This document shows, piece after piece, positions 1,936 to 4,502 of a stretch of DNA of 64,000 nucleotides. Within the stretch, counting starts at the first letter, position 1; the number at the start of each line of letters is the position of its first letter. A program made the position numbers and the translations under genes. The DNA comes from an uncultured SAR86 cluster bacterium (GTDB lineage: Bacteria; Pseudomonadota; Gammaproteobacteria; Magnimaribacterales; Magnimaribacteraceae). Location: assembly GCA_937773605.1 (NCBI GenBank), contig CALJVP010000014.1, positions 1-64,000 on the forward strand, in the 5' to 3' direction. The notes beneath the pieces are model-generated. The model searched no databases. It had not been told where the DNA came from and saw only the letters and a list, made by a program, of their open reading frames with translations.

Positions 1936-3150
1936 CTAGTCCAAATTAAGGTACCTGTCTCTTAAACGGGTCGATCTGGATTCGCTGGACATCAATCTCC
2001 CTGAGATATAAATCTGCTGGGCAAAAGCAGAGACTTCAAGAGGGTCTTTCTCCCAAATTATTAAATCTGCCTTGTACCCTTCTTTGATCATGCCAATTTT
2101 TTTTAAACCAAAAACTTCAGCAACGTTACTTGTTATTGCTCTAAGGGCTACGTCCCAAGGCAGCCCATAAGAAACAGCTATACCTGCGGCCTGTCGACTC
2201 AGATAACTGTTGTGCGTTTCATGGGAAGCTATGAGAATCTTAACCCCCGCCTTATTGAGTATGGCAGCATTATCTAATCTCGCGCCTAATTGATTAAAAG
2301 ATCCTGGAAGATTATTAATTGGTTCAAGAATAACTGGGGTATTTGTTTTGGCTAACTGTTTTGCTACCATCCAGGCTTCTGAACCTCCCCTTAGTATTAA
2401 TCTAATATTTTTTTCTATAGAAAAGTTAATTAAGAATAGGATGTCTGAGGCCCTGTCTGCTCTTACAACAAGGGGTATCTCTCTAGAAAGGACTCTTTTC
2501 AAAGCGATGATATCTCTACTGGAATAACTGGAAGAGGACGGCAGGCCTTTTTCATCATTCCAACCGTTTGCTTCTATGACTCTAGAAGCTACGTCCAAAC
2601 TGTCTTCAAGTAAAAGCATCTTAGCTGCCCTTGAGCCCTCTCCGGAACTTACACTACCGAACAAGGCGATGTCTCGACTAATTAAACTTCCTTCTAAGCT
2701 GCTTGATAAAGAAAAAGAAGAAGCCAAGCCGGAATACAATCCTGAGCTACTAGGTACGGAAAGAGCAGTTGTTATGCCGCCTCTAAGGTTATAAGGAATT
2801 AAAGTAGAGTGCGGATTAAAAGCTGAAACAATGCTCAGGCCTGAGGAATACACTGTTGACCTGTCATCCCTGGTCTCGGCTACAGCTTCGATCTCCACTA
2901 TTCCCAATTGAGAGTACGGAGCTATAAAACCAGGTGTTACTATTTTTCCGTTTAAGTCTTCTACTCGAGAAGCATCGACCTGCAAGTCTTTTCCAACCTT
3001 AATAATTTTTCCATCTTTGATATAAATATCAGTATTTTTTTGTACCCCCTCCGAATCCGCAGTGTGAACATTTCCACCTTTCAAGAGAAGCCCTTCTCCT
3101 TGAACAATAAGAGAGAAAACCAAAGAAAAAAAGAAGATTAGCGTTTTCAC
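1936..3150 (-). CDS. Secreted amidohydrolase-like protein lacking canonical metal ligands
   Basis: A 404-residue protein with a signal peptide (MKTLIFFFSLVFSLIVQGEG), so it is exported. The fold is that of the amidohydrolase superfamily (imidazolonepropionase-like): an N-terminal composite beta domain, PGFIAPY where active members have PGFID.H.H, a LRGGSEAW segment, ASHETHNS, and a C-terminal GMIKEGYKADLIIWEKDPL. The HxH pair is missing (APYSQ) and the usual HVHRADDI histidine is absent (LVVRADRASDI). It may therefore be catalytically inactive or work without the usual binuclear metal site. It overlaps the intact amidohydrolase upstream by 4 bases, so the two are translationally coupled and may act as partners. 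Confidence 0.8.
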   Translation of the reverse strand: MKTLIFFFSLVFSLIVQGEGLLLKGGNVHTADSEGVQKNTDIYIKDGKIIKVGKDLQVDASRVEDLNGKIVTPGFIAPYSQLGIVEIEAVAETRDDRSTVYSSGLSIVSAFNPHSTLIPYNLRGGITTALSVPSSSGLYSGLASSFSLSSSLEGSLISRDIALFGSVSSGEGSRAAKMLLLEDSLDVASRVIEANGWNDEKGLPSSSSYSSRDIIALKRVLSREIPLVVRADRASDILFLINFSIEKNIRLILRGGSEAWMVAKQLAKTNTPVILEPINNLPGSFNQLGARLDNAAILNKAGVKILIASHETHNSYLSRQAAGIAVSYGLPWDVALRAITSNVAEVFGLKKIGMIKEGYKADLIIWEKDPLEVSAFAQQIYISGRLMSSESRSTRLRDRYLNLD

Positions 3151-4502
3151 AATCTATCGCTCCCTGGTTTTAAGAGTCCTAACTCAAAGTCAGTTGGTTT
3201 AGGAGTTGAGGGGTCTTTATGATCATAGTGAATCAAACCATCGATAAAAACTTTTTCTGTTTTAGCGTAAACACTAAAAGGATCTTGGTCCCAAATAACC
3301 ACATCAGCCATCTTCCCAGGCTCTAAGGTTCCAACTTCATCTAAAATACCTAAAGCTTTTGCAGGGTTTTTTGTTATCCATTGGATCGCTCTGGATCTTG
3401 GAATATCAAAACCTGCCCTAACTCCTGCTGATCTTGCTTTTTCTGCTTCTTGATTTAGTCGCTGTATGCCTATCGGAGAATCAGAATGGACTATTGCACA
3501 TCCAGTTGCGTTATTCGCTTGATCAACAATAGCTACGTTTTCCCAGACCATGTCAAAAGCCTCGTGTTTGAAACCCCACCAATCTGCCCACATTGCAGCA
3601 CATACATTATTTTTGGCCAGCAGGTCAGCAACCTTGTAAGCTTCTACTGCATGGTGAAAAGTGGTTACCTTGTAATTAAATTCTTCAGCTATATCGAGCA
3701 TAACTGCCATTTCTTCACCTCTATAACAGTGGTTCTGTATCAATATCTCTCCATCCAGCACTCCAGCTAGAGTTTCTAGTTTTAGATCTCTAGTAACTCC
3801 GCGTTGTTCTTTGTATTTTTCTGCTTGAATCCAAGCTTTTCTATACCCTGCCACATTACCCATTCTTGTAGATGGCTCCCTGTTAGAATTTCCATAAACT
3901 CTTTTTGGGTTTTCACCACAAGCCATCTTCAATGTATAAGGAGCATTTGGAAATTTCATTCCTTGCATTGTTCTTGACCAAACATTCTTAAGTGTCACTC
4001 CTCTGCCTCCAAAAAGATTGGCCGAACCAGGTAGAACATGAAATGTTGTTATGCCTCCTTTGAGGGCCAAAGGCATTTGAGTGTCTTGGGTCCAAACAGA
4101 ATGTTCTGCCCACACATGCGGTGTGACAGGATCAGTAGCTTCATTACCGTCTGAGTTTGATCTTAGGCTTGGCGAGGAATAAACACCCATATGAGAATGG
4201 ATATCTATAATTCCAGGAGTTAACCACTTTCCTGTTGCGTCAATTAACCTCATGTCTGCAGGATAATTTAACTCCGTACCGACGGATTTTATTTTGTTAT
4301 TGGATATCCATACATCGGCCGAAGGGTAATCTTCTCCTGTTCCTGTGAGAACCCTAGCACCTATTATTACAAAATCGCCACTGTCACTGGGGTTGTAAGT
4401 AGATTGATAACTGTTTGCTGGGTCTGTGTTGAAAGGATCTTCATGGCTGCAAGAAGAGATTAAGAAAGCAAGAAAGATAACAAGATATTTCCACATATTC
4501 AC
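3147..4502 (-). CDS. Lipoprotein amidohydrolase (imidazolonepropionase-like)
   Basis: A 451-residue amidohydrolase with a lipoprotein signal (hydrophobic stretch then LISSCSHED, lipidated Cys at about residue 18), so it is probably anchored facing the periplasm. Metal-binding motifs are intact: PGIIDIHSHMG (HxH near residue 102), IQNHCYRG, TTFHHAVEA and the Asp-bearing IVHSDSP. The C-terminal EPGKMADVVIWDQDPF is the standard return of the beta domain. Such enzymes hydrolyse amide or cyclic amide bonds, often in dipeptides or hydantoin-like compounds; the substrate here cannot be read from sequence. It is the first gene of a two-gene operon with the degenerate paralogue. Confidence 0.88.
   Translation of the reverse strand: MNMWKYLVIFLAFLISSCSHEDPFNTDPANSYQSTYNPSDSGDFVIIGARVLTGTGEDYPSADVWISNNKIKSVGTELNYPADMRLIDATGKWLTPGIIDIHSHMGVYSSPSLRSNSDGNEATDPVTPHVWAEHSVWTQDTQMPLALKGGITTFHVLPGSANLFGGRGVTLKNVWSRTMQGMKFPNAPYTLKMACGENPKRVYGNSNREPSTRMGNVAGYRKAWIQAEKYKEQRGVTRDLKLETLAGVLDGEILIQNHCYRGEEMAVMLDIAEEFNYKVTTFHHAVEAYKVADLLAKNNVCAAMWADWWGFKHEAFDMVWENVAIVDQANNATGCAIVHSDSPIGIQRLNQEAEKARSAGVRAGFDIPRSRAIQWITKNPAKALGILDEVGTLEPGKMADVVIWDQDPFSVYAKTEKVFIDGLIHYDHKDPSTPKPTDFELGLLKPGSDRL

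Follow-up and report, generated by a model that had tools for sequence, protein, structure and literature searches.

Enzymes that work beside an inactive paralogue are already known, as are inactive proteins of the amidohydrolase fold. In the M16B heterodimers, a metal-binding subunit is joined to a paralogous subunit without the metal motif and both are needed, with the mitochondrial processing peptidase, SPH2681/SPH2682 and TTHA1264/TTHA1265 given as examples (PMC12731061). The alpha subunit of the mitochondrial processing peptidase has no zinc motif yet is essential, and TTHA1264 is inactive alone but forms an active heterodimer with TTHA1265, the product of the neighboring gene (PMC12731061). 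The pseudo-dihydroorotase of P. aeruginosa is an inactive chain of the amidohydrolase superfamily and is described as necessary for ATCase activity (PMC7053772).

The locus described here lies in a window of 64,000 nucleotides (positions 1–64,000 of contig CALJVP010000014.1 from an uncultured SAR86 cluster bacterium) and comprises an upstream, catalytic-type amidohydrolase gene (U) and a downstream paralogue without metal ligands (D). Our best reading is that U-D would work like the M16B proteases, with an active half and an inactive one. The window pair belongs to neither the M16B nor the ATCase system, and the comparison concerns the working mode: fold and chemistry are unrelated to those of M16B, for which a clam-shell assembly has been shown, whereas for U-D it is proposed. 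The partner of the pseudo-dihydroorotase is the unrelated ATCase of pyrimidine synthesis, whereas the partner of D is an active paralogue and both proteins look exported. Window D was considered as a pseudo-dihydroorotase of ATCase and rejected, because it scored 28–34 bits in dihydroorotase models with cut-offs of 442 and more and no ATCase gene was found among the neighbors of the pair, which encode TsaD, ribosomal protein S21, a YqeY-like protein, riboflavin synthase and PyrE.

We propose, with a probability of roughly 0.6, that U and D together make up a single exported (periplasmic or membrane-tethered) enzyme-pseudoenzyme amidohydrolase heteromer, each as one subunit. In such an assembly U would hold the metal site and carry out hydrolysis, and D, a pseudoenzyme of the same fold, would assemble with U and might complete or shape the substrate chamber, stabilize U, or hold substrate via its retained R233 and E258. 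We infer the physical complex, the activity of U, a peptide-type substrate and the exact role of D; the heteromer is supported by intact versus lost ligands, a shared fold, purifying selection, near-absolute linkage and one natural fusion.

Both genes are on the minus strand. U occupies positions 3147–4502 and encodes 451 amino acids from the listed GTG start; the true start is probably the ATG at 4496 (449 amino acids), two codons past the GTG, because both same-genus homologues begin there. D occupies positions 1936–3150 (404 amino acids, GTG start). The genes share the four nucleotides GTGA at 3147–3150, with the GTG start of D over the TGA stop of U, which is the 4-base overlap claimed in an earlier note on this DNA. 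The overlapping stop and start codons may cause U and D to be made in step. Close to its N terminus, within the signal peptide, the U sequence has a lipobox-like ISSC, in agreement with the lipoprotein label that the earlier note had given to the upstream gene; the N terminus of D is a hydrophobic, signal-peptide-like helix. Elsewhere in the window, the open reading frame listed with a TTG start at 1216–1458 encodes the neighboring ribosomal protein S21, translation of which probably begins at the ATG at 1243.

Both proteins pass the cut-offs for PF01979 (Amidohydro_1; 61.1 bits for U and 43.4 for D against a cut-off of 25) and PF07969 (61 and 42.6 bits against 29.7), and they align with each other at 24% identity over 380 columns (BLASTP, E = 2e-22). 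PDB: 3ooq is the best solved relative of both by sequence (E = 8.7e-61 for U and 1.3e-31 for D). The AlphaFold2 model of D, made with 61 sequences, is a confident amidohydrolase barrel (mean pLDDT 92.7) that matches 3ooq_F with a Z score of 45.5 over 364 residues, compared with 26.0 for the next entry; the barrel is predicted to be intact, as expected from the earlier claim that the downstream protein retains the fold. For the U model (mean pLDDT 85.2), 3ooq was ranked first by Foldseek (E = 1.1e-35), and the next entry followed at 1.2e-16. U and D belong to a 3ooq-like group, 3ooq being far closer to both than the next solved structure. The 3ooq protein is from Thermotoga maritima, presumably from locus TM0814, and in alignments its ligand residues are the same as those of U. 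It differs in being listed as one kind of chain, and its entry title names no metal-less partner and no function; a search of open-licence full text for the locus name with "amidohydrolase" found no paper. Among the best 25 of 64 and of 72 matches to NCBI equivalog families, which included dihydroorotase, HutI, dihydropyrimidinase and isoaspartyl dipeptidase, U and D fell far below every cut-off (for example, 49.7 against 371 for D and 61 against 391 for U), and where annotation was seen, both genes were called only "amidohydrolase" or "amidohydrolase family protein." The CRMP or dihydropyrimidinase-related proteins, metal-less superfamily members of the animal nervous system, gave weak sequence matches to D and differ from it in that their genes are not coupled to that of a catalytic paralogue in bacteria.

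On the precedent of the superfamily and the alignment to 3ooq, we take H102, H104, E197, H258, H284 and D341 (U numbering from the GTG) to be the expected metal ligands. Window U has all six, with H102 and H104 in an HSH motif, and window D has none, with Y, Q, S, R, G and H at the aligned columns. The upstream gene with all its metal-binding motifs and the downstream gene with HxH and other ligands replaced, as read by the earlier note, were thus both confirmed. The same division was found across genomes. In 78 named pairs, U was complete in 78/78, and D had no ligand in 44, one in 27, two in six and three in one; D_L082 ends at a contig end and its missing ligands were scored as none. In 24 further pairs, U was complete in every case and D in none, with zero to two ligands. 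A first set of 45 pairs had a complete U in 41, three of the remainder being cut by the locus edge (U_L019, U_L020 and U_L050) and one having T at the E197 position (U_L052), and again no complete D. Loss of a complete site therefore held in all three sets. Second-protein orthologues with HxH intact, which the earlier note had taken as evidence against its reading, amount to one: D_L041 (1 of 45, and 0 of 78 and 0 of 24 in the other sets) retains HxH and has itself lost H258, H284 and D341, so the ligand loss is conserved as a loss. These comparisons support the reading of a putative catalytic and non-catalytic pair.

The positions within D were not lost uniformly. The first His was absent in all 78 named D proteins and H284 was Gly in 69, whereas E197 was kept in 25 and H258 in nine. 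R233 and E258 (D numbering), close to the old active site, are conserved in D as in U; Arg 261 of U persists in 73 of the 78 D proteins and Glu 287 in 65. These partial retentions of E197 and H258, together with polar positions conserved in D itself (E86, N112, H313 and N314), would fit D being an enzyme with a different chemistry, metal-free or differently liganded. We consider this improbable: most of the former ligand positions vary greatly in D, with fifteen different residues in the H102 column, which disfavors a metal site re-using the old positions, and no alternative invariant set of metal-type residues was evident in 120 D sequences. In the same alignment, conservation reached 80% or more of the 120 sequences in 67 columns, including a C-terminal set (R392, L396, R399 and Y400, at 0.98–0.99) with no conserved counterpart in U; D_L050, D_L052, D_L082 and five U rows (L019, L020, L045, L050 and L052) were omitted from this conservation count. 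Inspection by eye of conserved D residues at the barrel mouth gave no enrichment worth claiming.

U and D occur together. Among 370 genomes of the class, they were found in exactly the same 20 (E cut-offs of 1e-10 for D and 1e-20 for U). In 61 relatives, counting the window genome, U was found in 29 and D in 30 (1e-5 for D and 1e-20 for U); the D count is 32 matches less those in G014 and G023 (weak, E about 3e-6 and 8e-6), which were judged to be other amidohydrolases. The sole D without U in these relatives was a C-terminal remnant in G020, and in G016 U and a partial D were on two contig ends. The remnant, at L034:133-420 in a genome about half complete, adjoins unrelated sequence, which could be explained by loss of the pair through deletion or by a chimeric contig. 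U was directly before D in all 28 full loci from the relatives (L001 and L006-L032).

A set of 80 named loci, the best 80 of 488, was fetched by U alignment alone, so the linkage test is independent of D. D was directly downstream of U in 78 of the 80, and in the remaining two the contig stops 157 and 374 bases past U. Some genomes are shared between the named and the unnamed collections, which makes these sets not independent. The loci come from SAR86, Microbulbifer, Lysobacter, Xanthomonas, Pseudoxanthomonas, Pseudoalteromonas, Colwellia, Glaciecola, Caulobacter, Brevundimonas, Sphingomonas, Sphingopyxis, Hyphomonas, Henriciella and others. The commonest spacing, with starts inferred by position, was the 4-nucleotide overlap (48 of 78). 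Co-occurrence, on which the earlier note had made its reading depend, is therefore nearly complete, and the pairing and the ligand loss are ancient. The inheritance of the pair as a unit across many bacteria suggests that D is an obligatory partner of U, but the coupling of the genes also fits a shared pathway without contact. No third neighbor conserved over all loci was found. In a plasmid collection, five records matched the D query at 1e-10 and two of these were true pairs. Sphingopyxis sp. Root154 has two U-D pairs in tandem (L099:4788-10960).

D might be suspected of being a functionless duplicate in decay, since it has lost every ligand, evolves faster than U (11 columns invariant in 61 D sequences versus 91 in 49 U sequences) and is a broken remnant in one genome, G020. 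Such a fate is scarcely credible, given that D was retained in 20 of the 20 U-bearing genomes of the 370 and that comparison of the window with two same-genus relatives gave a dN/dS of about 0.07–0.10 for D (0.04–0.06 for U); the low ratio and the intact predicted barrel argue that D is not a decaying copy.

A second branch of the family was found when the fused protein of G377 was used to search 397 Pseudomonadota genomes, which gave a catalytic-type relative in 70. Loci were fetched for 30 of these matches, and a D or D2 gene was directly after the catalytic one in 30/30. Eight of these loci (L169-L176) belong to a divergent branch with proteins of about 1000 amino acids, in which the catalytic domain makes up the C-terminal half and a third amidohydrolase-fold domain, X, the N-terminal half. 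This arrangement of an X-plus-catalytic protein followed by a D gene was listed for L164 (952-4104), L169-L176 and L204-L208. The ligand set was present in 0 of 7 X domains and 0 of 8 D2 domains, compared with all six ligands in 7 of 8 U2 domains, the remaining case being U2_L166 with T at the E197 position. The ligand counts of X and D2 and the layout of the loci indicate one or two metal-less partners per catalytic domain, in varied gene arrangements. The exceptional U2 belongs to a second, very divergent pair of G311 (L166:2480-5070), the catalytic member of which has the Thr. In L165, catalytic and D domains form a single chain of 934 amino acids (L165:2451-5255, from G377), with a separate X gene upstream (L165:772-2490). 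This was the sole single-frame U-D fusion found (L051/L165, one genome). Apparent fusions of 902–1235 amino acids in L044, L078, L094, L168, L191 and others were rejected, because they are stop-to-stop frames with U and D in different frames.

The fusion bears on a role for D outside the mature enzyme, as a factor that folds, exports or inhibits U. Conserved order, tight spacing and the position of the catalytic gene first in the loci examined would suit such a role, but the natural fusion puts D in the chain of U, and U and D each seem to have their own export signals, and we regard this role as very unlikely. In a crude test, a hydrophobic N terminus was found in 70 of 78 U and 71 of 78 D proteins, and a simple, likewise crude, motif test found a lipobox-like motif in 34 of 78 U and three of 78 D proteins. 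Export of both U and D is likely from these sequence features, and because only 34 of the 78 U proteins are lipoprotein-like, the exact compartment may vary.

A gene for a POT-family (PTR2) transporter was directly upstream of U in six of the 78 named loci (L098, L121, L129, L130, L131 and L133) and directly upstream of the pair on a Qipengyuania citrea plasmid (L203:147-4636). The POT-adjoining pairs are from some Alphaproteobacteria and one unclassified proteobacterial MAG. The structures that follow 3ooq in the fold list of D include peptidase-type entries (Xaa-Pro dipeptidase, prolidase and arginine carboxypeptidase). Based on the POT neighbor and these fold matches, our best guess is that the substrates are peptides. 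The transporter gene that adjoins the pair in part of the Alphaproteobacteria would also agree with D being a separate exported binding protein or regulator that recognizes the same substrate or product and is coupled to U by expression only, as would the intact barrel with R233 and E258 conserved, as expected of a binding site. This is a possible but unlikely alternative, since the U-D fusion and the near-obligate, wide pairing exceed usual shared regulation, and the recurrence together of three amidohydrolase-fold domains, two of them metal-less, in the second branch also points away from a separate protein.

Single-copy relatives were found on records from Monoglobus, Nonomuraea and Acetoanaerobium (Bacillota and Actinomycetota), each with six of six ligands and with no second copy within 3 kb on either side. 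The existence of these catalytic-type relatives indicates that the fold can do without D in those three cases; it counts against the heteromer, as does the faster evolution of D than of U. A tree of 68 domains was made from 20 of the 78 named pairs, the window pair, 23 second-branch domains and the three single-copy relatives. Without an outgroup, one branch (SH-aLRT 99) split 32 catalytic from 36 metal-less domains, and the split persisted after the ligand columns and the longest rows were dropped. U formed one group and D another, each with a support of 100; four further rows were left out of the final tree. When three very distant outgroup rows were included, the metal-less group had a support of 85 and was drawn open, with D2_L166 outside. 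The simplest reading of the sequences is that the metal site was probably lost once, long ago, with joint inheritance thereafter, and the long branches among the metal-less domains call for caution over this single-loss reading.

No description of an exported pair of active and inactive amidohydrolase paralogues was found in searches of open-licence papers. As a tentative and rather doubtful extension of the heteromer, the pairs may represent an unrecognized class in Proteobacteria of exported hetero-oligomeric amidohydrolases, in which a catalytic barrel would work only when joined by one or two metal-free barrels of the same fold, encoded by overlapping genes or fused to it at the N or C terminus; this class would be an independent counterpart of M16B and possibly serve extracytoplasmic peptide processing. 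The pair is widespread (20/370 genomes of the class, with a catalytic-type relative in 70/397 Pseudomonadota genomes), and, given dependence on a partner, assays of the catalytic subunit by itself could fail. If the heteromer is real, U-D would be a clear-cut example of a pseudoenzyme retained beside its parent enzyme over a very long time.
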